64,000 bases of DNA from Microbacterium suwonense (lineage in GTDB: Bacteria; Actinomycetota; Actinomycetes; Actinomycetales; Microbacteriaceae), in assembly GCF_030296555.1 (NCBI RefSeq), contig NZ_AP027728.1:2480001-2544000 (forward strand), in the 5' to 3' direction. The stretch's first letter is position 1; each line of letters starts with the position of its first letter. This document shows, in pieces, positions 10,209 through 37,751 of the stretch. A program made the translations under genes and the position numbers. The notes beneath the pieces are model-generated. The model ran no database searches, was not told where the DNA came from, and was given only the letters and a program-made list of their open reading frames with translations.

Positions 10209-10289
10209 CGCGGTCCGCCCCGGGGGTGCTGCCTCACCGCAGCGCCCCCGAGGCGTGCTCGCCGAAGACCGCAAGAAGAGGTACCCCGT

Positions 10290-11369: not shown

Positions 11370-11370
11370 C

Positions 11371-12406
11371 ATGACTGGGATCCCCGACTCCTACGACGAG
11401 ATGCCCACCCCGCAGACCGCGGTGCTGGCGGCGGCGCCGCCGCGCAGGAAGCACTGGGCCGAGAAGGTGCCGGTGCTCGCGCAGCTGCGGCAGAGCGTCG
11501 GGCTTCAGCGCGGGATGCTGGTGACCGGGCTGGCCATCACGATCCTGTTCATCGTCATCGCGCTGCTCGCCCCCTGCTCGCCCCGTTCTCGTGGGCGCAG
11601 CAGCAGACCGTCGACGGCGTCTCGTTCGGCACCCAGCAAGCGCCGAACTCGATGAACGTGCTCGGCACGACCGTGTCGGGCTTCGACGTGTTCTCCCGGG
11701 TGATCTGGGGGCGCAGACGGCACTGTTGGTGATCATCGCGGCGATCGCGTGCTCGATCTTCCTGGGCATCGCCCTCGGACTGGTCTCCGGCTACTTCGGC
11801 GGATGGCTCGACCGCATCCTGGTCGTCATCGCCGACGCGATCTACGCCTTCCCCTCGCTGCTGCTGGCCATCGTCATGTCGATCGTGATCAGCCGCGGGC
11901 AGTCCACGCTGGGCGGCGGCATCATGGCCACCGCGATCGCCATCACGGTGGTGTTCGTACCGCAGTACTTCCGCGTCGTGCGATCCGAGGTGGTGCGGGT
12001 GCGGGCGGAGCCGTTCGTCGACTCCGCGAAGGTGATCGGCGTGCCGACCACGCGGATCCTGCTGCGTCACGTGCTGCGCAACTCGACGCGCTCGCTGCCG
12101 GTGATCATCACGCTGAACGCCTCCGAGGCGCTGCTGACTCTTGCCGGGCTCGGCTTCCTGGGCTTCGGCATCGAGGCGACGGCCGCGGCCGAGTGGGGTT
12201 ATGACCTGAACCGCGCCGTGCAGGACGTCACCAGCGGTATCTGGTGGACCAGCGTGTTCCCGGGCTTGGCGATCGTGCTGGTCGTGCTGGGGGTCACCCT
12301 GGTCGGCGAGAGCCTGAACGATCTGAGCGACCCGCGACTGCGCCAGCGTCGCCGAGCGGGATCCAAGCGCAGAGGCCGCACGACGAGCGCGGGAGGAGAG
12401 TCATGA
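11371..12406 (+). CDS. ABC transporter permease, DppC/OppC type (two frameshifts)
   Basis: The N-terminal segment (RGMLVTGLAITILFIVIALLAP) reads correctly to 11574, the middle lies in a second frame (LLAPFSWAQQQTVDG) and the remainder in the third (AQTALLVIIAAIACSIFLGI onward). Two added bases, one in the C5 run at 11570-11574 and one in the G5 run at 11707-11711, restore a single permease of about 345 residues. The EAA loop and GLGFLGFGIEA are present. The stop overlaps the next start (ATGA, 12403-12406), so the operon is otherwise intact. The breaks are probably sequence errors. Confidence 0.85.
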
Positions 12407-21647: not shown

Positions 21648-21695
21648 TTGACATCGTTCCCAATCTGGGCCAGGGTACAAGTGGGAACGATCCCA
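21648..21695 (+). promoter_or_regulatory. Promoter and LacI-type operator of the left catabolic arm
   Basis: TTGACATCGTTCCCAAT (21648-21664) starts with a perfect -35 hexamer. ATCGTTCCCA (21653-21662) is exactly complementary to TGGGAACGAT (21682-21691), and the second half lies inside a near-palindrome TGGGAACGATCCCA (21682-21695). The -10 element is weak and probably lies around 21674-21681. The same 17-mer occurs at 28509, so both arms are probably controlled by the LacI protein encoded at 27330-28418. Confidence 0.75.
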
Positions 21696-21739
21696 ATTTC
21701 TCCGGATCCTGTTGATCCGGCCGACAGGAAGTGACCTCG

Positions 21740-22765
21740 ATGAGCCAGCTGATCCCCGTCCCCGATGACTTCGAAGCATGCGTCCAGCATGCGGTCGACC
21801 AAGACGACAAGGCGCGCGCGCTCGTCGATCGTGCGGTTGAGCGGGGCGTGGAGCGCGTCTATCTCGTGGGATGCGGAGGATCGCATTTCGGGACGTATCC
21901 GGCTTTCGACCTGCTGGACCGCTATGCGCCGAACATCATCAGTCAGCGCATCACGAGCGCTGAGCTGACCGCGCGCGCGCCGATCGGCCTGAACGACAAG
22001 GCACTCGTCGTGGCCGCATCGCATTCCGGGAACACGCCCGAGACGGTCGCGGCCGCCGAGTTCGCCAAGTCGCGGGGCGCGGTCGTCGCCGGCATCTCCC
22101 GCCAGGGCGACAACGGGCTCTCGCGCATCGGCGACCTGCACTTCGACTACCCCGACACGATCTCGATCACCGAGCCCAAGCTGGTGCACAACGAGCAGAT
22201 CGCCGCGGCGCTGCTCGACGCGTTCGGCAACCCCGACAAGGCCAGGCAGTTGCGCGCAGGCATCCCGGCTCTGCCCGGTGCGCTGCGCGCCGTCAAGGAC
22301 GAGATCGCCGAGACCGGTGAGCGTGTGGCTGATCTGCTCTCCGCTCCGCAGGCCCCGCTGAGCTACATCGTCGGTGGCGGCCCCGCCTACGGCATGGCCA
22401 AGATGATGGCATGGTGCTACTTCCAGGAGATGAGCTGGATGAACTCCGCCGCGATCAACGCGGGGGACTTCTTCCACGGCCCGCTCGAGATGATCCTCGA
22501 GGACACCGTGCTCGTCACGCTCGTCGCCGAGGACGCCAGCCGCTCGCTGGGAGAGCGCGTCGTGCGTTTCGCCGAAGGCCAGACGCGCAACTCCGCGGCC
22601 ATCGACACCGCAGCCCTCACCCTCCCCGGAATTCCGGCCGAGTCGCGCCCCGACCTCAGCCCGGTCGCACTGATGAGCGCCGAGCGCAGAGTGCTGGATC
22701 ACGTTGCGGCACGTCGTGGACATGACACGTCGCAGCGTCGGTACATGTACAAGATCGCGTACTGA
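21740..22765 (+). CDS. frlB: SIS-domain deglycase, FrlB/FraB-like
   Basis: A 341-residue protein with two sugar-isomerase (SIS) domains: VGCGGSHFGTYPA near residue 40 and AASHSGNTPETVAAAE near 95 in the first; YIVGGGPAYGMAKMMAWCYF in the second. NAGDFFHGPLEM resembles the active-site stretch of FrlB and FraB. Those enzymes split fructosamine 6-phosphates to glucose 6-phosphate and an amino acid. The FrlD-like kinase encoded next supports this reading. The ATG at 21740 is placed by AGGAAG upstream. Substrate amine is unknown. Confidence 0.75.
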   Translation: MSQLIPVPDDFEACVQHAVDQDDKARALVDRAVERGVERVYLVGCGGSHFGTYPAFDLLDRYAPNIISQRITSAELTARAPIGLNDKALVVAASHSGNTPETVAAAEFAKSRGAVVAGISRQGDNGLSRIGDLHFDYPDTISITEPKLVHNEQIAAALLDAFGNPDKARQLRAGIPALPGALRAVKDEIAETGERVADLLSAPQAPLSYIVGGGPAYGMAKMMAWCYFQEMSWMNSAAINAGDFFHGPLEMILEDTVLVTLVAEDASRSLGERVVRFAEGQTRNSAAIDTAALTLPGIPAESRPDLSPVALMSAERRVLDHVAARRGHDTSQRRYMYKIAY

Positions 22766-22786
22766 GTCGCGAGAGCGGAACAGCGG

Positions 22787-23653
22787 ATGAGACTCCTCGG
22801 AGCCGGCGACAACGTCGCCGACAGGTACCTGCATCGAGCAATGCAGTACCCCGGCGGCAACGCCTTGAACGTCGCGGTGTTCGCCGCGAGGCTGGGTGCG
22901 CACGCCGGCTACCTCGGCGTTCTGGGCGACGACGCGGCAGGACGGCAGATCATGCGCGCCCTGCAGGCGGAGCATGTCGACACGTCACTGACGCGCGTCG
23001 CCCAGGCTCCGAACGCCAGCGCCGACGTCGAGCTGCAGGGCAACGACCGTGTCTTCCTGCGCTCGGATCGATCGACGGCGCTGTTCGAACTGGACGATGA
23101 GCAGCTGGCGGCCATGGCGGACTACGACGTCGTGCACTCCGGGTACGCCGGCACGCTGCTGCCGCGCGTGCCGGAGATCGCGGAGCACGCGAAGGTGTCG
23201 TTCGACTTCGGCAGTCGCTTCGACCTCGCAGAGGTGGAGCCGTATCTGCCGCACCTGCATCTGGCGACCTTCTCGGGTGGTCATCTGGCCGATGCCGAGG
23301 CGCAGGAGCTGGTGAAGCGCGGACTTGACGGCGGGGCCGAGCTGGTGCTCGTCACCCGTGGCGCGGAGGGCGCGTACCTCGGGTCCTCCGAGGGCGTCCG
23401 GCACCAGCACGGCGAGGCGATCGTCGCTCGCGACACGCTCGGCGCCGGCGACGCGTTCATCGCCGGCGTGCTCGTCGGCATCGGCACCGGCAGGGGCATT
23501 CGCGCGACGCTGGTGGCGGCCAGCGCCCAGGCGGCGCAGGCATGTCAGGTGGACGGCGCATTCGACTACGGCATCCCCTTCGATGCGGCCGCAGCGCGAG
23601 AGCATGCGACAAGTCGGGACAGCACACACGAGAACAGGACGGTAGAGGCATGA
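22787..23653 (+). CDS. frlD: PfkB-family sugar kinase, FrlD-like
   Basis: A 288-residue ribokinase-family kinase. The N-terminus GDNVADRYLHR followed by YPGGNALNVAVFAARLG closely recalls fructoselysine 6-kinase FrlD. The catalytic DTLGAGDAFIAG motif (anion hole and Asp base) is near residue 220. It would phosphorylate an Amadori compound at C6 with ATP to give the substrate of the FrlB-like deglycase. Its stop overlaps the hyuA start (ATGA, 23650-23653). Confidence 0.78.
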   Translation: MRLLGAGDNVADRYLHRAMQYPGGNALNVAVFAARLGAHAGYLGVLGDDAAGRQIMRALQAEHVDTSLTRVAQAPNASADVELQGNDRVFLRSDRSTALFELDDEQLAAMADYDVVHSGYAGTLLPRVPEIAEHAKVSFDFGSRFDLAEVEPYLPHLHLATFSGGHLADAEAQELVKRGLDGGAELVLVTRGAEGAYLGSSEGVRHQHGEAIVARDTLGAGDAFIAGVLVGIGTGRGIRATLVAASAQAAQACQVDGAFDYGIPFDAAAAREHATSRDSTHENRTVEA

Positions 23654-25713
23654 CGCTGCGCATCGGGGTCGACACGGGCGGAACCTTCACGGACATCTGC
23701 GCCTTCGACGAGGAGACCGCGCGCGTGCACGTGCGCAAGGTGTCGAGCACTCCGGACGACCCGGGACGAGCGATCGTGCAGGGCGTGGAGGAGATCCTCG
23801 ACCAGATCGGAGGCCGGGAGATCTCCGAGGTCGGCTACTTCGCACACGGCACCACCGTGGGGACCAACGCGCTCCTCACCGGCCGCGGCGCCGTCACAGG
23901 GCTCATCACCACACGCGGGTTCCGTGATCTGCTCGAGCTGGGTCGCGGCCGCCGCCCGAGCATGTATGACCCGCAGGCGGACAAGCCGGCCCCGCAGGTG
24001 CCGCGGCATCTGCGCAAGGAGGTCGCCGAGCGCGTGAGGCACACCGGGGCCGTCGAGACCCCGCTGGACGAGGACGACGTGCGCCGTGCTGTGCGGGAGC
24101 TGCGCGCCGAGGGCGTTCAATCCATCGCCGTCTGTCTGCTCTACAGTTACCTCAACCCCGACCACGAACGTCGCATCGGCGAGATCATCGCGGAGGAGAT
24201 GCCCGGGGTGTACGTGTCGCTCTCGAGCGACGTGCTGCCGGAGTTCCGCGAGTTCGAGCGCCTCTCCACGGTCGTGACGAACTCCTACGTAGGGCCCGTG
24301 GTGGCCAATTACCTTGCCCGCCTTCGCGCCGTGCTGGCCGACCGCGGGCTCACCGCGGTCCCGCACGTCACCCAGAGCAACGGCGGAGTGATCCCGTTCT
24401 CCACCGCCGAGTCCCTCCCCGTGCGGCTCGTGCTGTCGGGGCCGAGCACCGGAGTGGTCGGCGCCGCGCAGATCTGCTCGGCGGCGGGTTTCGACGACAT
24501 CATCACCTTCGACATGGGCGGGACGTCGTCGGACATCTCGCTGGTGCAGGACGGTCGTCCGAAGGTCACCGCGGGGATGGAGCTCGATGGTCGTCCGGTG
24601 CGCTCGCCGATGCTCGACATCCACACCGTCGGCGCCGGCGGCGGTTCGCTCGCCTGGATCGACAGCGGCGGGCACCTGCGCGTGGGACCGCAGAGCGCGG
24701 GATCCTTCCCGGGGCCCGCGTGCTACGGCAACGGCGGCGGCGCCGCCGTCACTGACGCCAACGTGGTGCTGCGGATGCTGAATCCCGAGTACCTGCTGAA
24801 CGGCCAGATGAAGATCGACCGGGAAGCCTCCCTGGCGGCCGTGCGCCTTCATGCCGAGCAGCTCGGGCTGGGCGTGGAGGAGACGGCTCTCGGCATCCTG
24901 CGGGTGGTCACCGCCAACATGGCACGCGCCATCCGCGTGGTCAGCGTTCAGCGCGGGTACGACCCGCGCGATTACGCACTGGTCCCGTTCGGCGGGGCCG
25001 GACCGCTGCACGCGTCCCGCCTCGCGCGCGAGCTGGGGATGCGGCGCATGGTCGTCCCCGAGATCCCGGGCGCCCAGTCGGCGCTGGGCCTGCTGATGAC
25101 CGACGTGAAGACCGACTTCATGCGCACGCAGATCACGCTCGTGGACGAGAGTACCGTCGCTCAGCTCGACGACGTCTTCGCCGAGCTGAGCGACCGTGCG
25201 GCCGATTGGTTCGCGGAGGAGGACATCGACACGGCGAGTCGCGAGCTGCTCCGGAGAATGGACCTGCGATACCGGGGGCAGAACTTCGAGCTCGCGATCG
25301 ATCTGCCGGAAGAGCACCGGTTCGCACAGGCGGGTGCGGCACCCATCGTGGAGCTGTTCCACGAGGCGCACGAGCGCGTGTACGGGTACCGATCGGAGGA
25401 CGTGGCGGTCGAGGTCGTGACGTTCCGCGTCGAGGCGGCGGGCGCAGCAGCCCACGTCGAGGTGCGGCGCGACGAGCTGACGGCATCCGATCCGCTCGCC
25501 GCGGTGATCGGCGTGCGCAAGGCCTGCTTCGTCCCCGCCGAGGGCTATGTCGAGACGCACGTGTACGACCGAGCGCGCCTGACGCCGGGTGACGTGATCG
25601 CCGGCCCGGCGATCATCGAGCAGATGGACACGACCACGGTGCTCCTCCCCGGCGACAGCTGCCGGGTGGACGCGTACCGCAACCTGATTATCGAGATCGG
25701 AGACGAGGAATGA
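23650..25713 (+). CDS. Hydantoinase/oxoprolinase subunit A (HyuA family)
   Basis: A 687-residue ATP-dependent amidohydrolase subunit. The N-terminal phosphate-binding loop GVDTGGTFTDICAFDE is diagnostic for HyuA/5-oxoprolinase A, and a second ATPase-fold stretch is ITFDMGGTSSDISLVQDG near residue 290. With HyuB such enzymes open lactam or hydantoin rings using ATP. Here it sits between an Amadori kinase and a second subunit gene, all with overlapping stop and start codons, so it belongs to the same pathway. Whether the substrate is 5-oxoproline, a glycated form or a hydantoin is not decided. Confidence 0.9.
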   Translation: MTLRIGVDTGGTFTDICAFDEETARVHVRKVSSTPDDPGRAIVQGVEEILDQIGGREISEVGYFAHGTTVGTNALLTGRGAVTGLITTRGFRDLLELGRGRRPSMYDPQADKPAPQVPRHLRKEVAERVRHTGAVETPLDEDDVRRAVRELRAEGVQSIAVCLLYSYLNPDHERRIGEIIAEEMPGVYVSLSSDVLPEFREFERLSTVVTNSYVGPVVANYLARLRAVLADRGLTAVPHVTQSNGGVIPFSTAESLPVRLVLSGPSTGVVGAAQICSAAGFDDIITFDMGGTSSDISLVQDGRPKVTAGMELDGRPVRSPMLDIHTVGAGGGSLAWIDSGGHLRVGPQSAGSFPGPACYGNGGGAAVTDANVVLRMLNPEYLLNGQMKIDREASLAAVRLHAEQLGLGVEETALGILRVVTANMARAIRVVSVQRGYDPRDYALVPFGGAGPLHASRLARELGMRRMVVPEIPGAQSALGLLMTDVKTDFMRTQITLVDESTVAQLDDVFAELSDRAADWFAEEDIDTASRELLRRMDLRYRGQNFELAIDLPEEHRFAQAGAAPIVELFHEAHERVYGYRSEDVAVEVVTFRVEAAGAAAHVEVRRDELTASDPLAAVIGVRKACFVPAEGYVETHVYDRARLTPGDVIAGPAIIEQMDTTTVLLPGDSCRVDAYRNLIIEIGDEE

Positions 25714-27342
25714 GCGCTGTGGAGCTGGATCCCGTATTGGTGGAAGTCGTCGGGTCGGCCCTGTCGACCATCGTCGAGGAGATGAGCGAGACCCTCGTCA
25801 AGGCCGCATACTCGCCGAACATCAAGGAGCGCCGCGACTGCACCGCCAGTCTGTTCGATGCGGACGGGCGGGCGATCGCGCAGGATGAGGGCGGCTCGCC
25901 CCTGCATCTCGGCTCGCTGATGGGCATCGTCTCCGCACTGCGGGAGCGCTACTCGATGGATCAGATCCGTCCGGGAGACGTCTTCATCGGAAACGACCCG
26001 TACACGGGCGGTGGTTCCCATCTGCCGGACATCGTCTTGGCGACGCCGATCTTCGTCGACGACGAGCTCGCCGCCTGGGCCGCCGTGCTCGCGCACCATG
26101 CCGACTTCGGCGACCGCGGGCACGCGCACATCTTCCAGGAGGCCATCCGGATTCCCCGGTGCACCTCGTGCACGAGGGGGTGCGTCAGGAAGAGCTTCTC
26201 CAGCTCATCCTGCTCAACTGCCAGGTGCCCGAAGAGCGCATCGCCGACCTGCGCGCCCAGGAGGCCGCCCTGCGGGTTGCGGTCTCACGGTTCAGCGAGC
26301 TCTGCGACCGGTACGGATCCGCCGTGGTCCGGGCGATCGGCGCGGAGCTGCTGGACTACACCGAGCGCCGGACACGCGCGGCGATCGCCGAGTTCCCCGA
26401 TGGGGAGTACTCCTTCGAGGATCGCTTCGACTGCCCGGAGCTGGATGACGAGCTGACGCTGCGCGTGCGGATCGTGGTGAAGGGCGAGGAGATGCTCTTC
26501 GACTTCGCCGGGAACCCGCCGCAGGTGCGCGCGAGCGTGAACGTGGTGTGGACCGGTCTGTACGCGGCGGTCTACTACACGATCAAGACCCTCATCGATC
26601 CCGACATCGCCCCGAACGCGGGCCTCTATCGGCCGGTGACGATCGAGGCGCCGGAGGGATCGATCATCAACTGCTCGGCGCCCGCGGCGGTCAACGGACG
26701 CAGCGAGACCTGCCAGCGCATCGTCGATCTGATCCAGGGCGCCCTGGCCCCCGCGGTGCCGGAGCGCGTCACGGGTGCGTCCAACGGTGCGAACACCGGC
26801 GTGCACTTCTCGGGACACGACAGCGAGCGCGGTCGGGACTTCGTCTACCTGGAGACGATCGGCGGCGGCAGTGGCGCCCGGTACGACAAGGACGGACTCG
26901 ACGGCGTGCAGGTGCACATGACCAATACGTCGAACCTGCCGGTGGAAAGCCTCGAGGCGGAGTACCCGCTCATGGTGGAGGCGTATGAGTTCATCGAGGA
27001 CTCCGGCGGCATCGGCGAGTTCCGCGGGGGATGGGCATCCGCCGCCGCATCCGGGTCGAGGCCGAGGACGTGCACTACTGGCTGGACACCAGTCGGCAGA
27101 AGTCCCAGCCCTGGGGGCTGTTCGGCGGTGGGCCCGGTGCGTCGGCACGCAGCGTGCTCAGCGAGGACGCCACTCCGATCGACCACGGATACACGGTGCT
27201 TCAGCCCGGCCAGTGGGCTTCCATCGAGACGGCGGGTGCGGGCGGGTACGGCGATCCCGCCATCCGTCCCGTGGACGCCGTCGAGGCCGATGTCAAGGAC
27301 GGACGTGTCTCGGAGGAGACTGCGCGGCGCTATCGGGCCTGA
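25710..27342 (+). CDS. Hydantoinase/oxoprolinase subunit B (HyuB family, two frameshifts)
   Basis: HyuB-family protein of about 544 residues when joined. Part one carries IKERRDCTASLFDADG and GDVFIGNDPYTGGGSHLPD, both typical. The frame breaks in the C4 run at 26154-26157 and again in the G5 run at 27026-27030. Adding one base to each gives continuous sequence through GNPPQVRASVNVVWTGLYAA, NGANTGVHFSGHD and GYGDPAIRP. The ATG overlaps the hyuA stop. The end overlaps the convergent lacI gene by 13 bases. Breaks are probably sequence errors. Confidence 0.85.
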
Positions 27343-28418
27343 GCCGGAGGAGCGACCGACTCGCGCGTGATCAGCTCTGGTTCGAGCAGGTGCACGACCG
27401 GCTCGGTGGCGGCGCCGCGGATGATGCCGACCAGCACCGTGGCCGCCGTGGCTCCCAGATGCTGCTGGGGCTGCTCCACGACCGAGACCGTCGGCTGGAC
27501 CATGGTGGTCCAGTCCTGGTCGTCGAAGCCGATGAACGAGAGCTGATCCGGGATGCTGACACCGCGCGCGCGGATGCCTCGATACGCACCCGAGCTGAGC
27601 ACGGCATCGGTGGCGTGCAGGGCGGTGGCACCGGTGTCGCGGGCGAGGAAGTCCTCGACGGCCCGCTGCGCATCCTGTGTGGTGTAGCCGGATCGCAGGA
27701 TCAGGTCGTCGTCGACCTCCAGGCCGGCCTCGCGGAGCGCCCGAAGGTAGCCGATGAACCGCTGTGCGGAGGGGCGCAGCGGGGATCGGACGTAGGGATC
27801 GCCGACCCGCCCGCTGAGATCGTCCAGGACGGCGCGCTCCCGCGTGACCTCCGTCAGCAGGCCGATCCTTCGGTGGCCGAGCTCGATCAGCGAGCGCACC
27901 GCGCGTTCCGTGGCGGCGACATGGTCGACGGACACCAGGGGAAGGCTCTCCAGGCCCGGCATCCGGCGGTCGAGCAGGACGATCGGGAGTTCCTCGGCCT
28001 GCAGGCGGATGATGGCGGCCGGGTCCTCCTGGAAGACCGGTGCGATCGCGATGCCGTCGACCCGCTGCTCGGCGAGCAGTTCGAGGGATCGCGCCTCGAC
28101 GTCGGCGTCGTTGTCGGTGTTGCTCACCAGGACCTCGACGCCGGCTGCACGCGCAGTGTCGGCGAGACCGCGCAGCACGGCGGAGAAGAACGGGATCGCG
28201 ACATCGGGAACCACGATGCCGATCGTGTTCGTCGCGCCGGACTTCATCGCACGGGCGAGCTGGTTCGGCCGATATCCCAGGCGGTGGGCGGCTTCGAGAA
28301 CCTTCGTGCGCATCGTCTCGCTGGTGGATCCTCGCCGTGCCAGCACTCGTGCGGCAGCCGATTTCGACACCCCCGCTTCCTGCGCGACGTCGATGATGGT
28401 CACTGCCTCGTGCACCAT
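27330..28418 (-). CDS. LacI-family regulator of the two-armed catabolic locus
   Basis: A 362-residue LacI repressor starting at ATG 28418 (GGGAGG six bases upstream). The helix-turn-helix is TIIDVAQEAGVSKSAAARVL (residues about 7-26), with the hinge-helix region PNQLARAMKSG, then a periplasmic-binding-like sensor domain. It is encoded between the two arms on the opposite strand: convergent with frlB-frlD-hyuAB and divergent from the ABC importer arm. Matching operators GGGAACG(A/T)TCCC stand before both arms, which makes it the natural regulator of both. Inducer unknown, possibly an Amadori compound. Confidence 0.88.
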   Translation of the reverse strand: MVHEAVTIIDVAQEAGVSKSAAARVLARRGSTSETMRTKVLEAAHRLGYRPNQLARAMKSGATNTIGIVVPDVAIPFFSAVLRGLADTARAAGVEVLVSNTDNDADVEARSLELLAEQRVDGIAIAPVFQEDPAAIIRLQAEELPIVLLDRRMPGLESLPLVSVDHVAATERAVRSLIELGHRRIGLLTEVTRERAVLDDLSGRVGDPYVRSPLRPSAQRFIGYLRALREAGLEVDDDLILRSGYTTQDAQRAVEDFLARDTGATALHATDAVLSSGAYRGIRARGVSIPDQLSFIGFDDQDWTTMVQPTVSVVEQPQQHLGATAATVLVGIIRGAATEPVVHLLEPELITRESVAPPAQAR

Positions 28419-28508
28419 TGGGCCTCCCTGTCCAGTCGATCGCATCGTAGCGAAGCATGGGAGCCGCTTCGGTCGAGGATCGCCTGCCGCAAATCATCTC
28501 AGATGTTG

Positions 28509-28566
28509 TTGACATCGTTCCCAATGTGCGCAAGAGTGTCTGAAGACGCACTGAGGGAACGTTCCC
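28509..28566 (+). promoter_or_regulatory. Promoter and LacI operators of the right catabolic arm
   Basis: TTGACATCGTTCCCAAT (28509-28525) repeats the left-arm promoter word exactly. A perfect 12-bp palindrome GGGAACGTTCCC (28555-28566) follows. The distance from -35 to the palindrome is 11 bases, about one helical turn, longer than the equivalent distance at the left arm. The 392-base gap 28419-28810 also holds the lacI leader and a small open reading frame. Confidence 0.75.
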
Positions 28567-28691
28567 ATTCTGTACAGGGCGTGATCTCCGCAGAGTAGCG
28601 AAAGCCCTGAAGGTCTCTGCGACAGGAGGTCGGCCTCAGCCCATTGCCGGGCGAGGATCAGATGATACGACGAGGAGGTTCAAGGAAGAAC

Positions 28692-28814
28692 ATGGACGAA
28701 GCGGCGAAGACAGCGAACGTGATGCAATTCCCGATGACGTCGCCCGCCCGCCCGACACACCGGCATCCGCTGCCGAACAGGCACCCTCTCGTATCCCAGC
28801 CCTCCGGGCATTGA
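28692..28814 (+). CDS. Possible 40-residue leader peptide gene
   Basis: An ATG at 28692 preceded by GGAGG and AAGGAAG opens a 40-codon frame (MDEAAKTANVMQF...). Its TGA (28812-28814) overlaps the TTG candidate start of the binding protein at 28811, an arrangement that fits translational coupling. The peptide is rich in His, Pro and Arg and matches nothing I recognise. It may be a leader or simply untranslated sequence. Confidence 0.35.
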   Translation: MDEAAKTANVMQFPMTSPARPTHRHPLPNRHPLVSQPSGH

Positions 28815-30432
28815 AGAAACGGTTTTCCACCATGATCGGTTTCCCTGCGCCGCACAAGAACCGCGTCTCGCGTCGAGTCACACGAGGCGCCGTGCTCGCC
28901 GTATCCGCTGCACTCACCATGACTCTGGCCCTGGCCGGCTGCTCGCCGAAGAACTCCGGCGATTCCTCCGACGGATCGTCCGGCGACGCCGGCGCCACCC
29001 TGTCGTTCGGCCTCTCCTCCGAGCCCGCCGGATTCAAGACCGGTGTCGATCAGGGCTCCGCCGCGCGCGAGATCATCACCCTGGTCCGCCGTGGACTGCT
29101 CACCTACGACGGCGAGGGGAAGGTCGTACCCGCGCTGGCCTCGGACTACACCGTCTCCGACGACGGTCTGACCTACACCTTCACGCTGCGCTCGGGCCTG
29201 AAGTTCTCCAACGGCGACAGCCTGACGTCAGCCGACGTGAAGCGCACGTTCGAGTACCTCGCCGTCGATGAGAACGGTGCCGCGGCTGCGGCCGCCTTCG
29301 CGAACATCGCGACGATCGACACCCCGGATGACGCGACGGTCGTCCTCACGCTGTCCCAGCCGCAGACCGCGTTCCCGCAGGTTCTCGCAGACCCGCTGTC
29401 CGCGATCGTGCCCGAAGATGCGGTCGACGCCGATGGCGTGCCGATCGGCGACGGCCCGTTCAAGATCGTCGACTACCGCAAGGGGTCTCCTACACGCTGG
29501 AGGCCAATCCCGACTACTTCGATGCCGACTCGGTCAAGCTCGGCGGCATCGACGTGACGTTCATGGCCGACGCGCAGACGCGGGTCAAGGCGCTCATGAG
29601 CGGACAGGTCCAGTTCATCGATTACGTGGCGGCCGCGGACTTCAAGACGCTTGAGAGCGCAAAGGGCATCACGCTCAAGACGGCTCCCGGCCTGTACGGC
29701 GCGGTGCAGTTCAACCTCACCCGCGGCGCGCTCGCCGTGCCGGAGGTGCGCCAGGCCATCGCGTACGCGATCGACCTCAAGGCCTACAGCCAGGCTGGAA
29801 CCCTCGGATACGGCGAGCCGACCGGCGGACTGCCGATCGCGCCCACCAGCCCGTACTACGACAAGGAACAGGCGGGGCACTTCGCGCTGAACGTCGACAA
29901 GGCCAAGCAGCTCCTCGCCGAAGCCGGCTACGCCGAGGGCGTCAAGCTCACGCTGCTCACCAACTCGCAGTACTTCGGGTACAGCGAGCGCGCTCAGGTT
30001 GTCAAGAGCGACCTCGAGGCCATCGGCATCACGGTCGACATCGAGAGCGGCGACTATGCGAACCAGATCGCGAAGGGCAACTCGGGAGACTACGATCTGA
30101 TGATCGGCGGACCGTCTGCGGCGCTGAACGACCCGTCGGCGATCACGGCCGCCTTCATCGGCGGTCCGACGTTCGTGCGATCGGTCGGAATCGACCAGAG
30201 CCTGTACGCCGACCTGCTTGAAGAGGGCGCCAAGACCGCGGACGGGCCCGAGCGCGAGGCGATCTACAAGGAGATCGGCGAGATCTACCTGAAGGATGTT
30301 CCGTTCGTCACCACGGGCACGGGCGTCTCGGCATACGCCTACACCGACAAGCTGAAGGGCTTCCAGATGCTCAGCGGTGCGATCGTGTACTCGTCGCTGT
30401 ACAACCTGGCAACCGCCGAGCTCTCCGAGTAG
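28811..30432 (+). CDS. Family 5 ABC substrate-binding lipoprotein of the catabolic locus (frameshifted)
   Basis: A peptide/opine-type binding protein of about 540 residues. The TTG at 28811 gives MKKRFSTMIG as a basic start; ATG 28832 is the alternative. The signal region ends in a lipobox (LALAGC). Family 5 features include GLTYTFTLRSGLKFSNGDS and later FNLTRGALAVPEVRQAIAYA. The frame breaks in the G4 run at 29482-29485; one added G joins DYRKG to VSYTLEANPDYFDAD. It would capture the ligand of this locus for the permeases that follow. Confidence 0.85.
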
Positions 30433-30475
30433 CAGTCCACGTGACGGCATCCATCACCCACCGAGGAGGTTCACG

Positions 30476-31432
30476 GTGACCCGATATGTACTCATTCGCC
30501 TCGGAATGGGTGTCGTCACAGTCTGGGGCGTCATCACCGCAGTGTTCCTCGCGCTGCACGCCGTACCCGGCGGTCCGGCGGCCGTGATGCTCCAGGGAGG
30601 CGCCGGCGGCGGGGACGTGAACCCCGCCGCCGTCGCCGCCCTCGAGCGCGAACTCGGTCTCGACCGGCCGCTGCTCGTTCAGTACGGCAGCTACTTGCTC
30701 GACATACTGCGCGGAGATCTCGGCACGTCCATCAAGTACTCCTCACCCGTCGGTGAGATCATCGCCACCCCGTTCGGCAACACCGTCGCGCTGGTCCTGA
30801 TGGCCATCGTGATCGGCTGCGTGGTCGGCATCGCGTTCGGCGCCCTCTCCGCTGTGTGGCCGGGAAGCGTCCTGGACCGGGTGCTGTCGGGATTGATCTC
30901 GGTCGCTGTCTCGACACCCGGCTTCGTCATCGCGATCTTCCTCTCGCTGTTCGTCGGGATGTCGCTCGGCTGGTTCCCCTCGCTCGGCTACACGCCCATC
31001 GAAGATGGATTCGGCGATTTCCTCTATCACGCGTTCCTCCCGAGCCTCGCGTTGTCCTTCGGCTTCCTCGCGATGATCGGCCGCGTGACGCGGACATCCG
31101 TGCTCGCCGTTCGACGCGAGGACTGGGTGCGCACAGCAAGAGGCATGGGCCTGAGCCGCCCGCGCGTCTTCCGGCGGCACGTGTTCCGCAACGCGGTCAA
31201 CCCGGTCATCACCGTGGCAGGCATCCAGCTGGGCGCCCTGCTCGGGGCGACGGTCCTCATCGAGGGCGTCTTCAACTGGCCGGGCATCGGCAGCACCCTG
31301 CTGAACGCCATCAACAGCCGCGACTATCCGCTCGTGCAGGGCATCGTCATCGTCTTCGCGTTGGTGTTCGTCGCCACGAGCCTTCTCGTCGACCTCATGT
31401 ACCGCTTCCTTGACCCCCGAGTGGAGGACTGA
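30476..31432 (+). CDS. ABC permease, DppB type, of the catabolic locus
   Basis: A 318-residue permease starting at GTG 30476, with a strong GAGGAGG site upstream. TRYVLIRLGMGVVTVWGVIT is the usual first helix; later comes the EAA-type loop (RTARGMGLSRPRVFRRHVFR) and the DPRVED end. About six membrane segments. It pairs with the next gene, five bases downstream. Confidence 0.92.
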   Translation: MTRYVLIRLGMGVVTVWGVITAVFLALHAVPGGPAAVMLQGGAGGGDVNPAAVAALERELGLDRPLLVQYGSYLLDILRGDLGTSIKYSSPVGEIIATPFGNTVALVLMAIVIGCVVGIAFGALSAVWPGSVLDRVLSGLISVAVSTPGFVIAIFLSLFVGMSLGWFPSLGYTPIEDGFGDFLYHAFLPSLALSFGFLAMIGRVTRTSVLAVRREDWVRTARGMGLSRPRVFRRHVFRNAVNPVITVAGIQLGALLGATVLIEGVFNWPGIGSTLLNAINSRDYPLVQGIVIVFALVFVATSLLVDLMYRFLDPRVED

Positions 31433-31437
31433 TCGCG

Positions 31438-32351
31438 ATGAGTGCCTTCTTCCGTGCGCTGTGGCGCAGATCGAGCCCCGGTCTCTTCATCACCAGCGCT
31501 CTGACTTTCCTGCTGATCCTCCTCATCTTCATCTATCCCCTGCTGACCGACGTCGATCCGCTTGCGCAGGACATCGACAACGCCTTCGCAGCGGTCGGCA
31601 CGCCCGGTCACCTTCTCGGCACGGACAATCTCGGGCGGGACACTCTCGTCCGCCTCGCCTACGGGCTGCGCACCGGCTGCTCGTGTGCGCGACGGGGACG
31701 GTGCTCGCAGCCCTGATCGGCACGCTCGCGGGGATTCTGGCGGCATACTTCCGTGGATTCGCGGACATGCTGCTGATGCGCATGGTCGACATCGTGCTCG
31801 CATTCCCCACGCTCGTCTTCGCGATGCTGATCGTCTCGCTCTATGGCGCAGGCAACCTCACGATCATCGTCATCTGCGCCATAGTGTTCTTCCCCAGCTT
31901 CGCCCGGCTGACGTACGGCGAGGTCCTCTCGCTGAGACGAGCGCTGTACGTCGAGTCGGCCGAGCTGTTCGGCGGCACGCGGTGGCAGATCATCAGCGGT
32001 CCGCTGCTGCGCGGGGTCGGCCCGCTCGTGCTCGCCCAGGGCTTCCTGACGCTCGCGTTCGCCGTGGGTCTGGAGTCGGGCCTGAGCTTCCTCGGCCTGG
32101 GCATCACCCCGCCGACACCGTCTCTCGGCCTGATGATCGCGAGCGGACAGCAGTACTTCCTGCAGAGCCCATGGCAGCTGCTCATTCCCAGCATCGTGCT
32201 CGTGGTCCTGCTCGTGATCTTCGGTTACGTGGCGGACTGGATCCGCGATCTGCTCGACCCTCGAGGGGTCGGCAAGGTCAAGCGCGGTCGTCGGGGCGGA
32301 GCCGCGCCGCGGGTGACGGCGGCGGAGATGATCGAGGGGGTCAGCGCATGA
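31438..32351 (+). CDS. ABC permease, DppC type, of the catabolic locus (frameshifted)
   Basis: The N-terminal part (one helix, then LLGTDNLGRDTLVRLAYGLRTG, the classic DppC sequence) reads to about 31678. The remainder continues in another frame with LLVCATGTVLAALIGTLAGI, the EAA loop (YVESAELFGGTRWQII) and GLSFLGLGITPPTPSLG. One added base near 31674-31680 restores a permease of about 304 residues. This break is the only one not inside a run of at least three, although a GG pair is present. The stop overlaps the ATPase start (32348). Confidence 0.85.
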
Positions 32352-34063
32352 GCGACCGGGAAGTGCTTCTGAAGGTCGACGACCTCGACATCGACGTGGC
32401 CGGAACGCGCATCGTGACCGGCGCCTCGTTCTCGGTGGCCCGAGGCGAGGTCGTCGCCATCGTCGGCGAGTCCGGCGCCGGCAAGTCGATGACCGCGATG
32501 TCGATTCCGCATCTGCTGCCCGCGGGGGCCGAGTGCCGCGGCTCGATCGACTTCGACGGTCATGAGCTGATCGACGCCTCCGAGAAGCGCATGCAGCGCT
32601 ACCGCGGTGCGGAGATCGCCTGTGTCTATCAGGAGCCGATGACCGCTCTGAACCCGTTGCACACGGTGGGGGACTTCCTCTCAGAGGCGATCCGCTCCCA
32701 CGCCGGGACCGCGGGGAGCGGCGCCCAGCGTGATCCTCAGGAGCTTCTGGAACTGGTCGGGCTCGGCTCGCATCCGGATCTTCTGCGCCGCTACCCGCAT
32801 CAGCTGTCCGGCGGTCAGCGCCAGCGCATCATGGCCGCCGGTGCGGTGGCCTGGAAGCCCAAGCTGCTCATCGCCGACGAGCCCACGACCGCCTTGGACG
32901 TCACCACGCAGCGCAATCTGCTGGCGATGTTCCGGAACCTGGTCGAGCAGGAGGACATGTCGATGATCTTCGTGACGCACGACATGGGCGTCGTCGCAGA
33001 CATCGCGGACTCCGTCGTGGTGATGAGGAACGGATCGGTCGTCGAGACGGGGGATGTGTTCTCGATCTTCGCCGAGCCCGAGCACGAGTACACCCGGTCA
33101 CTGCTGTCCGCCGCTCGAGCCCTGCACGGCGCCGAGATGATCAGCGCGGATGGCGACGGGGCTGCGTCGCGCGAAGCGGATGCCGCATCCGTCGACTCGC
33201 CGATCGCCGTGCCGAGGCACGGGGCGGGAGCCGCACCGGCGCTCGAGGTCCGCGACCTCACGATCGAGTACCGGAGATCCGGTCTGCGCCGGAAGGGCTC
33301 GCCAGAGGGCCGGCGTGCCGCTGTGGACGGGGCCTCCCTGCAGGTGTTCTCGGGGGAGACCCTGGGCATCGTGGGCGAGTCCGGCTCGGGCAAGTCCACC
33401 ATCGCGCGGTCGATCCTGGGGTTGACGCCGGTGACGGGCGGGACCATCTCGATCGGCGGCGTCGACATGGTCGGTCTCCGAGGACGCGCCCGCCGGCGTG
33501 CCCTCGGCAAGCTCGGGGTCGTGTTCCAGGACCCGACCTCGTCACTGGATCCGAGCCTGCCGCTGTGGAAGGTGGTGACGGAGCCGCTCTGGCGCAGTGG
33601 CATGCTGCGGGATCAGCGTGCGCTCCGTCGGCGCGCCGCAGAGCTGCTGGAGAGCGTAGACATGGACCCGGGCTGGCTACACCGTCGCCGACATGAGCTC
33701 TCCGGTGGTCAGCGTCAGCGCGTGGCGATCGCCCGAGCGATCTCGCACAGCCCGGACGTGCTTCTCGCAGACGAGCCCACCTCCGCGTTGGACGTGACGG
33801 TGCAGGTGACGGTGCTCGATCTGCTCGCGCGCCTGCAGAAGGAGCTCGACTTCGCGTGCGTCTTCATCAGTCACGATCTGTATGTGGTCTCCACGATCTC
33901 GGATCACGTGCTGGTGATGAAGGACGGGCAGATCGTGGAGGCGGGGTCCACGGCCGATGTGATCCACAACCCGACATCTGACTACACCCGCACGCTGCTG
34001 GGGGCCATCCCCGTGCCGGACCCGGTTGCGCAGAAGGCGCGTCGCGACGTCGTCACCGCGTAG
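32348..34063 (+). CDS. Dual ABC ATPase (DppD-DppF fusion) of the catabolic locus
   Basis: A 571-residue fusion of two ABC ATPase domains. Walker A is GESGAGKS near residue 40 and GESGSGKS near 345. Signatures are SGGQRQR twice. Walker B motifs are LLIADEPTTALD and VLLADEPTSALD. The linker near residues 270-300 is Ala- and Asp-rich. It drives uptake through the two permeases just upstream. It is a paralogue of the ATPase at 12403-14139 but clearly diverged. Confidence 0.93.
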   Translation: MSDREVLLKVDDLDIDVAGTRIVTGASFSVARGEVVAIVGESGAGKSMTAMSIPHLLPAGAECRGSIDFDGHELIDASEKRMQRYRGAEIACVYQEPMTALNPLHTVGDFLSEAIRSHAGTAGSGAQRDPQELLELVGLGSHPDLLRRYPHQLSGGQRQRIMAAGAVAWKPKLLIADEPTTALDVTTQRNLLAMFRNLVEQEDMSMIFVTHDMGVVADIADSVVVMRNGSVVETGDVFSIFAEPEHEYTRSLLSAARALHGAEMISADGDGAASREADAASVDSPIAVPRHGAGAAPALEVRDLTIEYRRSGLRRKGSPEGRRAAVDGASLQVFSGETLGIVGESGSGKSTIARSILGLTPVTGGTISIGGVDMVGLRGRARRRALGKLGVVFQDPTSSLDPSLPLWKVVTEPLWRSGMLRDQRALRRRAAELLESVDMDPGWLHRRRHELSGGQRQRVAIARAISHSPDVLLADEPTSALDVTVQVTVLDLLARLQKELDFACVFISHDLYVVSTISDHVLVMKDGQIVEAGSTADVIHNPTSDYTRTLLGAIPVPDPVAQKARRDVVTA

Positions 34064-34097
34064 CGGCTGCGGTCACGAGAACGGAGAGGACATCCTC

Positions 34098-35699
34098 ATG
34101 AAGAGCGAGTACGCCACCCCTGGACGCTACGGACTCAAGCCGGTCGCCACCGGCGACCGCGGGATGGTGGTCAGCTCCGAGCCGATCGCCGTCGAGGCGG
34201 GCGCGGCGGTTCTGCGGGAGGGCGGCAACGCGGTGGATGCCGTGCTCGCCGTGGCGGCGACGCAGCTGGTCACCGAGCCTCATATGACCTCGCTCACCGG
34301 TGGCATGTCGCTGGTCTACCGAGACGCGTCGACGGGTGTGGCGTCGTACCTCTCCGGCAACATCAACGCGCCCCTTGCACCGCTCGACGACTTCGTCGGC
34401 GCCGACCTCTACCGTGCTCGCGGCGTTCCCGTTCCCGGCTGGTGGCCCGCGTTCGCTGCCGCGCACGAACGCTTCGCCGCGCTGCCTCTGGCACGGCTGC
34501 TCGCGCCGGCGGTGGATGTCGCTCGCGAGGGGTTCGCTGTCTCCCCCTACCTGTTCGGCGAGATGTATCACGCACGCCAGAACCTCGGGCGCAATCCCGA
34601 GTCGCGCGAGATGTTCTTCTGCGACGGTTCGCTGATCACCACCGGGCAGAAGCTCGTGCAGCACCGGGTGGCTCGCACACTGGAGCGCCTGCGCGACGAG
34701 GGCATGGACTACTACCTGGGTGATTTCGCCGAGGCGTTCTGCGCCGCATCCGATTCCGATCACGGCGTCATCACGCGGGCGGACTTCGAGGCGTACCGGG
34801 CGGAATGGGCGGAACCGGTGCGGGGCACGTACCGGGGCTTCGAGATCATCGGCTCCGCTCCGCCGGACGACGGCGGTATGCAGATCGTGGAGGCGTTCAA
34901 CATCCTCGAGAATCTCGATCTCGGTGCCCTCGGACCGGCGAGCGAGTCGCCTGCGACGCTGTCGGCGCTCATCGCCGCTCACAACGCGGTGTACTACGCG
35001 GCCCCGCGCGAGCGGCGGTTCCGCGAGTCGGAGCGGATCATGCGGACGCTGCTGTCGAAGGAGTACGCGAAGCAGCGCTTCGACCTGCTGGACACCCTCG
35101 CCACGCCCCTCTCCGCGGCCCCGCCCACTCCCGGCACCATCCACATCTCGGTGGTCGACGCCGACCTCAACGTGGCGACCCTGACGCATTCGCACATGGC
35201 CTCGCCGTGGGTGAACGGCCTCTACGCCGAGGGGTTCCAGCTGTCCGGGGGCGGGTCGTTCTTCCAGCGGGTGATGCCGCAGCCGGGCGAGCGTGCGACG
35301 ATCTATCTCGCGCCGACCATGGTCCTGAGCGAGGGGCGGCCGGTGATCGCCGCCGGCTCGCCGTCGGTGTCGCTGGTGGCGTGTGTGATGCAGAATCTCG
35401 TCAACCTCATGGACTTCGGGATGACGATCGAGGAGAGCGTCGCCCAGCCGCGATTCGGCGCTCGACCGCATGACCCCGCCAGCGGATGGGTGCCGGGCGT
35501 GACCTTGGAATCCGGCTTCGCGGACGGGGTTCTCGACGATGTCCGGCGGTGGGCCGGTGAGAATCGCCTGTGGGCCCGCGAGATCGGCCCTTGGAACTCG
35601 ATGACCGGCAACTTCGACGGCATCACGATCGACCCGTCCACCGGGATCATGCGCTCGTGCGGCGATCCGCGCCGGATGGGGACGGCCGTCGCCGCGTGA
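34098..35699 (+). CDS. Gamma-glutamyltransferase-family Ntn-hydrolase, cytoplasmic and atypical
   Basis: A 533-residue GGT-family protein; ATG 34098 follows GGAGAGGA. Family features are GMVVSSEPIAVEAGAAVLREGGNA-like sequence at the N-terminus (REGGNAVDAVLA) and the autocleavage region GTIHISVVDADLNVATLT, in which the nucleophile Thr is kept but the usual second Thr is Ile. The oxyanion GSPGG is changed to GSPSV. No signal peptide is present, unlike most bacterial GGTs. It closes the ABC importer operon, so it may hydrolyse an imported gamma-glutamyl or amide compound inside the cell. Confidence 0.8.
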   Translation: MKSEYATPGRYGLKPVATGDRGMVVSSEPIAVEAGAAVLREGGNAVDAVLAVAATQLVTEPHMTSLTGGMSLVYRDASTGVASYLSGNINAPLAPLDDFVGADLYRARGVPVPGWWPAFAAAHERFAALPLARLLAPAVDVAREGFAVSPYLFGEMYHARQNLGRNPESREMFFCDGSLITTGQKLVQHRVARTLERLRDEGMDYYLGDFAEAFCAASDSDHGVITRADFEAYRAEWAEPVRGTYRGFEIIGSAPPDDGGMQIVEAFNILENLDLGALGPASESPATLSALIAAHNAVYYAAPRERRFRESERIMRTLLSKEYAKQRFDLLDTLATPLSAAPPTPGTIHISVVDADLNVATLTHSHMASPWVNGLYAEGFQLSGGGSFFQRVMPQPGERATIYLAPTMVLSEGRPVIAAGSPSVSLVACVMQNLVNLMDFGMTIEESVAQPRFGARPHDPASGWVPGVTLESGFADGVLDDVRRWAGENRLWAREIGPWNSMTGNFDGITIDPSTGIMRSCGDPRRMGTAVAA

Positions 35700-36232: not shown

Positions 36233-36724
36233 ATGGCCGGCGAAACCGTCATCACCGTGGTGGGCAACCTCACCGCAGATCCCGAGCTGCGCTACACGCA
36301 GAACGGCCTGCCGGTGGCGAACTTCACCATCGCCTCGACTCCGCGCACGTTCGACCGTCAGGCCAACGAGTGGAAGGACGGCGACGCGCTGTTCCTCCGC
36401 GCATCGGTGTGGCGCGACTTCGCCGAGCACGTGGCGGGCTCGCTGACCAAGGGCATGCGCGTCATCGCGCAGGGCCGTCTGCGTCAGCGCTCCTACCAGG
36501 ACCGCGAAGGCAACCAGCGCACCTCGATCGAGCTGGAGGTCGACGAGATCGGCCCGTCGCTGCGGTATGCGACGGCGCAGGTCACGCGGGCCGCATCGGG
36601 CGGCGGCGGACAGTCCCGTCCGCAGCAGCAGCAGGTCTCGGAAGAGCCGTGGTCGACCCCCGGTTCCTCGAGCGCTGACGCCTGGAGCACTCCGGGCAGC
36701 TTCGGCGACGACACCCCGTTCTGA
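36233..36724 (+). CDS. ssb: Single-stranded DNA-binding protein
   Basis: 163 residues. The OB-fold N-terminal 110 residues include [19 protein letters not shown] and ADFTEHV-equivalent [14 protein letters not shown] Gly/Gln/Ser-rich tail ends in the acidic tip DDTPF that recruits repair and replication proteins. It lies five bases after rpsF, the usual order. Confidence 0.97.
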
Positions 36725-36772
36725 AATTCCGGATGCCGATGGCATCCGCTCTCATCTCTTAAAGGAAAACTC

Positions 36773-37027
36773 ATGGCTGGAAAGTCGAGCGGCGACCGCC
36801 GCAAGCCGCGGAAGGGTGGCAAGCCCACCGCTCCCGCGAAGTCGATCCGCGTCGGCGTCATTGACTACAAGGACGTCTCAACGCTTCGCAAGTTCATCTC
36901 CGAGCGTGGAAAGATCCGCGCCCGTCGTATCACCGGTGTCTCCGTGCAGGAGCAGCGTCTGATCGCCAAGGCGATCAAGAACGCTCGCGAGATGGCTCTC
37001 CTGCCCTACGCCGGCGCTGGCCGCTGA
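36773..37027 (+). CDS. rpsR: 30S ribosomal protein S18
   Basis: 84 residues with [19 protein letters not shown] and [19 protein letters not shown], diagnostic for S18. No zinc-binding Cys cluster is present, so this is a Cys-free paralogue type. A clear AAAGGAAAA site precedes the ATG. Confidence 0.98.
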
Positions 37028-37038
37028 GGGGTGCTGAC

Positions 37039-37491
37039 ATGGCAAAGCTGATTCTCACGAGCGAGGTCGCCGGGCTCGGAAGCGCCGGTGACGTGATCGA
37101 GGTCAAGAACGGGTACGCCCGCAACTACCTCATTCCCCAGGGCTACGCGACCGCGTGGACCCGTGGTGGCGCCAAGCAGGTCGAATCGATCCAGGCAGCC
37201 CGCAAGGCGCGTGCGATCCACGACCTCGACGAGGCCACTGCGCTGAAGAACAAGCTCGAAGGCACCAAGGTGCGCCTGGCCGTCAAGGCCGGCGGCGAGG
37301 GTCGCCTGTTCGGCTCGGTGAAGACGGCCGACGTGGCCGACGCTGTCGCCGCCGCCGAGCTGGGCACCATCGACAAGCGCAAGGTGCACTTCGCCGCCCC
37401 GATCAAGTCGGTCGGCGAGCACGAGGCGACGGTTCGTCTGCACGACGACGTCACCGCCGTGATCACCCTGCAGGTCGTCGCCGCGAAGTAG
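37039..37491 (+). CDS. rplI: 50S ribosomal protein L9
   Basis: 150 residues with the family signature [20 protein letters not shown] at the N-terminus. The two-lobe length is normal. It ends the ribosomal cluster, just before a strong terminator. Confidence 0.98.
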
Positions 37492-37611: not shown

Positions 37612-37715
37612 TGGGAGCGCGCCCATGACGCTCTTGACGCGAGCAGCTAACGGGCGTACGGTGGCTGAGAAATCAAGTGGGAGCGCTCCCAGTATTCTCA
37701 ATGCAAGCGCTCCCA
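37612..37715 (+). promoter_or_regulatory. Three CebR boxes and the ceb promoter
   Basis: A perfect CebR/CelR palindrome TGGGAGCGCTCCCA lies at 37678-37691. A one-mismatch copy TGGGAGCGCGCCCA is at 37612-37625 and a two-mismatch copy TGCAAGCGCTCCCA at 37702-37715. The promoter TTGACG (37634-37639) and TACGGT (37657-37662), 17 bases apart, lies between boxes 1 and 2. Box 2 covers the start region of the transcript, so repression by CebR is expected and cellobiose would relieve it. Confidence 0.9.
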
Positions 37716-37751
37716 TGACTCTCATCCCACGCACACAAGGAAGTGAATCCC

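Follow-up and report, generated by a model that had tools for sequence, protein, structure and literature searches.

The window analyzed here, a stretch of 64,000 nucleotides from the soil bacterium Microbacterium suwonense (contig NZ_AP027728.1, positions 2,480,001 to 2,544,000), contains between positions 21648 and 35699 a cassette of two gene arms (table 1). A sequence-only reading of this DNA had described the cassette as linking enzymes for Amadori products to an oxoprolinase pair, a peptide importer and a gamma-glutamyltransferase (GGT). Searches of the window with Pfam and NCBIfam profiles recover every part thus named, with the caveat that HyuB and the solute-binding protein (SBP) each extend over more than one reading frame (see below). 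The first arm encodes a predicted deglycase of the SIS family, a PfkB-family kinase and the two subunits of an ATP-dependent lactamase, HyuA and HyuB, with overlaps of 4 bases at the PfkB/HyuA and HyuA/HyuB junctions. The second arm encodes a family 5 ATP-binding cassette (ABC) importer, the fused ATPase of which has GsiA as its best NCBIfam match, below the cut-off, and a protein of the GGT fold that probably starts at 34098.

Table 1. Predicted features of the cassette, with positions in the window
Feature	Position	Strand	Evidence
Arm 1 promoter/operator region	21648..21697	+	TTGACATCGTTCCCAAT at 21648, palindrome GGGAACGATCCCAAT at 21683
SIS-family deglycase, FrlB/FraB type	21731..22765	+	Pfam SIS 1.1e-13
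PfkB-family kinase, FrlD type	22787..23653	+	Pfam PfkB 1.9e-31
HyuA, ATP-binding subunit of ATP-dependent lactamase	23650..25713	+	Pfam Hydantoinase_A 1.4e-91
HyuB, metal-dependent subunit	25710..27342	+	Pfam Hydantoinase_B in two open reading frames (ORFs); frame changes
LacI-family regulator	27330..28445	-	Pfam LacI 1.4e-11 and Peripla_BP domains
Arm 2 promoter/operator region	28509..28569	+	TTGACATCGTTCCCAAT at 28509, palindrome GGGAACGTTCCCATT at 28555
Family 5 solute-binding lipoprotein (SBP)	28832..30432	+	Pfam SBP_bac_5 in two ORFs; LAGC box by eye
ABC permease 1	30479..31432 (start estimated)	+	Pfam BPD_transp_1 2.3e-43 in ORF 30377-31432
ABC permease 2	31410..32351	+	Pfam BPD_transp_1 3.7e-28
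Fused two-domain ABC ATPase	32348..34063	+	Two ABC_tran stretches in one chain
GGT-fold N-terminal nucleophile (Ntn) hydrolase	34098..35699	+	Pfam G_glu_transpept; no signal peptide by eye

The SIS protein lies nearer to FrlB and FraB than to other families of its fold. It aligns over about 310 residues with the structures 3eua (3.1e-43, 151.6 bits), deposited in PDB as a putative fructose-aminoacid-6-phosphate deglycase, and 9otj (2.7e-39, 138.7 bits), which we take to be FraB, while scoring 94-134 bits with three SIS proteins of unspecific name and at most 45.7 bits with glucosamine-6-phosphate synthases. Its best NCBIfam match is likewise fructoselysine 6-phosphate deglycase, with 102.3 bits for the FrlB model (curated cut-off 430) versus 53.1 for GlmS. 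The catalytic Glu/His pair appears to be retained as E233 and H249, which are 16 residues apart, invariant in the 26 aligned rows and aligned to 9otj; the corresponding residues of FraB are presumably E214 and H230, and the deposited variant 9otu carries Ala at the position of E233. The adjoining kinase has fructoselysine 6-kinase as its best NCBIfam match (3.1e-45, 154.7 bits, the next model scoring 76.8; cut-off 247). These data support the assignment of the two proteins to an Amadori-type deglycase and kinase, as the sequence-only reading had proposed. In the SIS tree, built with 54 of the 81 sequences extracted, E. coli FrlB forms a very long branch of unsure placement.

HyuA contains the ATP motifs DTGGTFTD, DMGGT and GSFPGP (GxxPGP), equivalent to the phosphate 1, phosphate 2 and adenosine motifs described for the alpha subunit of caprolactamase (PMC8453981), and its best NCBIfam match is CapA, at 598 bits versus a cut-off of 1000. 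The first piece of HyuB contains ERRD, SHLPD and HHADF, which we matched by eye to Asp41, His99, Asp102 and His124 of CapB, the Asp-His-Asp-His metal site of the beta subunit (PMC8453981). Among 1013 plasmid records of HyuA relatives, all below 60% identity, the closest proteins are those of Paracoccus plasmids (54-55%); proteins of tumour-inducing (Ti) plasmids are also present (51-53%), including that of Ti plasmid NC_002377 (52%), where the genes for HyuA and HyuB come after one for a flavin adenine dinucleotide (FAD) oxidoreductase and face those of a family 5 ABC importer. A Paracoccus plasmid carries a similar gene set. In a tree of 53 HyuA rows, the clade of cassette proteins (24 rows, hereafter clade 1) is sister to the clade with the Ti and Paracoccus plasmid proteins, with support of 100/99, a relation that holds for the rows sampled. 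The record of NC_002377 gives no gene names in this region, which we take to be that for the catabolism of agropinic and mannopinic acids (genes aga) on a Ti plasmid of the octopine type; Lyi, Jafri and Winans reportedly found in 1999 that AgaF and AgaG open the lactam of N-mannityl-pyroglutamate.

The HyuA of the cassette, which is the only Hydantoinase_A gene of its own genome (at 1e-20), shows just 34-36% identity with three proteins of fused length (1245-1333 aa) taken for 5-oxoprolinases, and HyuA and HyuB are two separate genes, unlike fused OplA. Consequently, the earlier description of HyuAB as an oxoprolinase is not supported in the strict sense, and a plain 5-oxoprolinase was rejected as a candidate. 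Its further suggestion that HyuAB opens the lactam of a sugar-pyroglutamate is, however, strengthened by context: the kinship with Ti-plasmid proteins, the gene neighbourhood and a second pairing with Amadori enzymes (see below) all point to this as the likely role.

To evaluate how conserved the cassette is, we scanned one genome per species, covering 84,980 species, using an alignment of SIS sequences, and retained the best 80 of 124 loci. The order SIS-PfkB-HyuA-HyuB is contiguous and on one strand in all 22 retained loci having SIS identity of at least 45% (L034-L055), and the same is true of 25 of 25 loci when G114, G846 and the window are included. The cassette is otherwise rare, for SIS proteins with at least 73% identity are found in four of 198 genomes of the genus and two of 299 of the family, own genome included in both counts. 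HyuA at 1e-170 occurs in four of 396 genomes of the phylum, namely the own genome and three with proteins of 42-47% identity, near which no SIS gene lies within the stretches read.

Among the other 58 retained loci, 47 show no match to HyuA or HyuB, several of them lying on short or cut contigs, while seven (L056, L059, L064-L066, L069, L070) run in the order SIS, PfkB, ABC ATPase, HyuA, HyuB. The HyuA proteins of these seven loci form a separate clade (clade 2) of the HyuA tree, and in the SIS tree the same loci group with others that are devoid of HyuAB. A single HyuA clade shared by both SIS-PfkB groups is rejected by the approximately unbiased (AU) test (p-AU 3.2e-5), conducted on 41 rows after removing nine clade 1 rows and three long rows from the set of 53. 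This test thus rejects a common origin of the link to HyuAB in both SIS groups; the link arose twice, or else HyuAB was replaced once.

The two arms share regulatory features, since the DNA upstream of both contains TTGACATCGTTCCCAAT (at 21648 and 28509) followed by the palindrome GGGAACGWTCCC (at 21683 and 28555). The 15-base operator pattern, with up to two mismatches, has four matches in the window versus 0.23 expected, and the 17-base promoter element, with up to three mismatches, has three versus 0.03 expected. Given that both patterns were derived from the window itself, independent support comes from their recurrence in relatives: a site GGGAACGNTCCC, with at most one mismatch, is present upstream of SIS and of the SBP in each of the 10 loci with a LacI gene that faces the importer arm (the window, L137-L142, L146, L040 and L185), with six further copies of this type, also within one mismatch, elsewhere across these loci. 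In another locus, L041, the palindrome lies upstream of SIS only. The coupling of the two arms suggested by the sequence-only reading is therefore borne out, and they apparently constitute a conserved, co-regulated block, the palindrome being the probable binding site of LacI. Just downstream, the cassette directly adjoins ssb and rplI (36233-37491), a core-gene neighbourhood; the palindrome GGGAGCGCTCCC at 37679-37690, one mismatch from the cassette version, lies immediately upstream of an ABC operon of the sugar type that starts at 37743, and may mark another regulon of the LacI type.

The genes that accompany the four core enzymes vary among the 25 cassettes, which can be divided into four architectures. 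Type A (the window, L034/L138, L035/L137 and L185) has the family 5 importer followed by a GGT-like gene; type B (L036-L040 and L139) has the importer with an epimerase but lacks a GGT-like gene at the cassette; type C (L041-L044) has the importer with neither, and no GGT match was found in the genomes of these loci; type D, the Streptomyces type (L045, L047-L055, with L049 from Streptomyces albus NRRL B-1811), has a carrier of the major facilitator superfamily (MFS) in 10 of 10 loci by tblastn, confirmed by Pfam on one locus, and a GGT-like gene also in 10 of 10. The cassette of L046 runs off its contig. Hence, of the conserved block expected earlier (frlB-frlD-hyuAB-DppABCDF-GGT), the enzymatic core is constant, but the family 5 importer is present in 14 and a GGT-like gene in 14 of the 25 cassettes. 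The epimerase of type B resembles TIM-barrel ketose 3-epimerases and is encoded between permease and ATPase; in L040 it matches best the model of psicose 3-epimerase and, more weakly, that of FrlC, both below cut-off. At L185 (G846), a second SIS-family gene (30% identity) lies divergently beside the cassette, at 17.9-18.8 kb.

The binding protein of the importer also resembles that of the Ti region. The SBPs read from six cassettes share 35-41% identity with the one belonging to the Ti-plasmid importer that faces HyuA, versus 24-29% with that of the second importer of the Ti region, and the pieces of the window SBP are 34-37% identical to a Ti-plasmid SBP. The window also encodes another family 5 ABC importer with fused ATPase (8832-14106), parts of which are 24-44% identical to the Ti-plasmid importer. 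In clade 2, locus L056 has an ABC importer of the sugar type. Because the carriers change while the core enzymes remain constant, a small conjugate is favoured as the substrate.

Taken together, these results lead us to propose, with a probability of about 0.58, that the locus is one regulon under LacI control that serves to consume an N-sugar pyroglutamate, with N-(1-deoxyfructosyl)pyroglutamate as the likeliest compound; HyuAB would open the lactam, and kinase plus deglycase would produce glucose 6-phosphate and glutamate. N-(1-deoxyfructosyl)pyroglutamate is the lactam formed by glycated glutamine and glutamate. Buckwheat honey is reported to contain N-fructosyl-pyroglutamate (PMC12114437) and broccoli a derivative of it (PMC13205324), and deoxyfructosyl-glutamine, that is glycated glutamine, is stated to occur in decaying plants (PMC4231840). 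The lipoprotein SBP, the two permeases and the fused ATPase of the second arm would import fructosyl-pyroglutamate, the lactam of which would be phosphorylated by HyuA with ATP and hydrolyzed by HyuB to yield fructosyl-glutamate; the PfkB kinase would then form the 6-phosphate, which the SIS deglycase would split into glucose 6-phosphate and glutamate. Deglycases of the FrlB type release an amine, whereas the lactam nitrogen is an amide, so ring opening would have to precede the deglycase step. The Amadori and lactam reading is well supported by neighbourhood, phylogeny, the second independent pairing and the shared palindromes.

Several observations weigh against this proposal. The SIS protein and the kinase both score below the NCBIfam equivalog cut-offs, and therefore are relatives rather than proven orthologues of the frl enzymes, while the identity of the Ti-plasmid genes as those for agropinic acid is our assumption. 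The scan revealed no operator-type palindrome next to the arms of L143-L145, of the five type D loci covered (L045, L047, L049, L054 and L055) or of the clade 2 loci L056 and L064. A FAD oxidoreductase of the DAO family lies beyond LacI in 8 of 10 type D loci (L045, L047-L053, at about 7-8.6 kb) and just upstream of SIS in a locus of Microbacterium sp. MYb66 (L035, 8696-9766), thus beside 9 of the 25 cassettes, the upstream flank being too short for this count in L034, L036, L043, L044 and L046; the scheme above assigns no role to it. Finally, HyuB and the SBP are frame-broken in the present assembly.

These breaks amount to three shifts of frame, which affect two genes over about 3.3 kb. HyuB is spread over three frames, with changes near 26156 and 27031-27067 (the Ti-plasmid protein aligns by tblastn in frames 3, 2 and 1 at 60, 55 and 35% identity), and the SBP_bac_5 gene over two, with a change near 29479. 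All of them occur at or by short runs of G or C, which suggests indel errors. Among the relatives, all 23 loci checked encode HyuB in one open frame, and all 12 with an SBP have it open as well; furthermore, the genome of the window, in one contig, has a completeness score of 96.14%, versus 99-100 for 14 further genomes of the genus listed as one contig. The first two pieces of HyuB are 91-94% identical to the two nearest relatives and those of the SBP 62-76%, all without stops, the last HyuB piece being compared only with the Ti-plasmid protein (35%). Error of assembly is thus the likelier cause, though not a proven one, and gene decay was set aside on the grounds that the pieces remain close to the relatives and free of stops.

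The presence of FAD oxidoreductases keeps open a different explanation, namely that the substrate is a mannityl opine, for instance agropinic acid, which HyuAB would convert to mannopinic acid before an oxidoreductase, adjoining or encoded elsewhere, makes the form that kinase and deglycase accept. It would fit with HyuAB and SBP being closest to those of the Ti-plasmid opine region, and with the oxidoreductases beside type D loci and L035. Moreover, four alphaproteobacterial SIS-PfkB-ABC loci (L057, L060-L062, at about 16.8-18.3 kb) have, in place of HyuAB, a FAD oxidase that shares 48-49% identity with the enzyme encoded next to HyuAB on the Ti plasmid; these loci possibly represent a mannityl-opine version of the pathway. 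However, the oxidoreductases adjoining clade 1 cassettes share only 24-36% identity with that of the Ti plasmid, where they match at all, and the window contains no match to the Ti-plasmid enzyme (at 1e-5) or to that of L047 (at 1e-10), hence no oxidoreductase of the kind that stands by HyuAB in the Aga system. Kinase and deglycase, moreover, require a keto sugar. We consequently regard an opine substrate as unlikely.

Somewhat less probable still is a different glycated compound containing a cyclic amide, for example a glycated peptide or cyclic dipeptide, which the peptide-type importer would take up and the GGT-fold hydrolase would trim. Importers of family 5 often carry peptides and the GGT-fold protein lacks the residues for gamma-glutamyl binding, but the importer is not conserved, and the MFS carrier of all ten type D loci or the sugar-type ABC importer of a clade 2 locus would suit a small sugar conjugate. 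The least favoured option, that HyuAB acts as 5-oxoprolinase or hydantoinase on free pyroglutamate or hydantoin released by the pathway rather than on a sugar conjugate, would agree with the Pfam names of the domains and with the ready formation of 5-oxoproline from glutamine, but is countered by the 34-36% identity to presumed 5-oxoprolinases versus 52% to the Ti-plasmid HyuA, by the association of HyuAB with Amadori enzymes at all 25 loci and by its recruitment or replacement in a second lineage.

Returning to the proposed use of fructosyl-pyroglutamate, the GGT-fold protein deserves separate consideration. It has the GGT fold and the Thr nucleophile, but Arg114, Asp433, Ser462, Ser463 and Gly483 of E. 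coli Ggt are changed or absent in 26 of 26 aligned sequences (that of the window and 25 from a list of 101 others with at least 40% identity). These residues have gamma-glutamyl-binding or oxyanion roles, although some GGTs of extremophiles vary at the Arg and Ser-Ser positions (PMC8062742). Accordingly, the claim of a true gamma-glutamyl enzyme was abandoned; HpxW, cephalosporin acylase and LmbA share the fold in our searches, which therefore does not name the reaction. No GGT-like gene was found at 1e-80 beyond the own genome among the 396 genomes of the phylum. Relatives with 58-84% identity are present in Micromonospora, Amycolatopsis, Pseudonocardia and Luteimonas (P0108, P0142, P0144 and P0163).

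In the pathway, this protein might be an accessory hydrolase, perhaps one that deamidates the side chain of fructosyl-glutamine, in which case both forms would end in fructosyl-glutamate. A broader and more tentative idea, to which we give clearly less credit than to the substrate proposed above, is that of an undescribed Amadori-lactam pathway in which HyuAB was recruited at least twice to pairs of the FrlB/FrlD type, the GGT-fold enzyme of one branch acting as a fructosyl-glutamine amidase, with open amide and closed lactam both leading to fructosyl-glutamate.

The cassette joins two kinds of pathway that are known separately, Amadori breakdown and lactam opening. The earlier remark that ATP-dependent lactam opening is added in no described pathway has to be qualified, for the use of agropinic acid on Ti plasmids is presumably a close precedent. 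Among the matches listed by our literature search, judged by titles and the beginnings of abstracts, none combines an Amadori deglycase with a HyuAB enzyme, and none appears to describe bacterial degradation of the closed lactam. The cassette supplies enzymes, a candidate operator and cultivable hosts for work on lactam breakdown, and connects the catabolism of crown-gall opines with the Amadori pathways of gut and soil. It also suggests what class of substrate might be used by a HyuAB subgroup that at present bears only the name hydantoinase or oxoprolinase, and by a GGT-fold subgroup called gamma-glutamyltransferase.

The closest known system is that of Ti plasmid NC_002377, which resembles the window in HyuA, in HyuB (55-60% for the first two pieces, 35% for the last) and in the family 5 importer with fused ATPase (SBP 34-41%), and presumably also in having a sugar-glutamate lactam as its substrate; it differs in the FAD oxidoreductase beside HyuAB and in that no SIS or PfkB protein is annotated in the 30 kb stretch, where the window has kinase and deglycase. 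Conversely, the frl systems of E. coli (for fructoselysine) and B. subtilis (for alpha-glycated amino acids) share the FrlB-type deglycase and FrlD-type kinase, and E. coli additionally frlC, similar to the epimerase of six cassette relatives, but the former has no HyuAB or GGT-fold gene and none is named in the excerpted account of the latter operon, frlBONMD-frlP. The fra system of Salmonella, for fructose-asparagine, combines a FraB-type deglycase and FraD-type kinase with an amide hydrolase, the asparaginase FraE, which the excerpted source calls periplasmic, naming no lactam-opening enzyme. Caprolactamase CapAB is a split enzyme of two subunits with the same ATP motifs, yet HyuA remains well short of the CapA cut-off and a different substrate is expected. 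E. coli Ggt, in turn, differs from the subfamily in the window by the five residues that the latter has not kept, while the fold and the Thr nucleophile are common to both.

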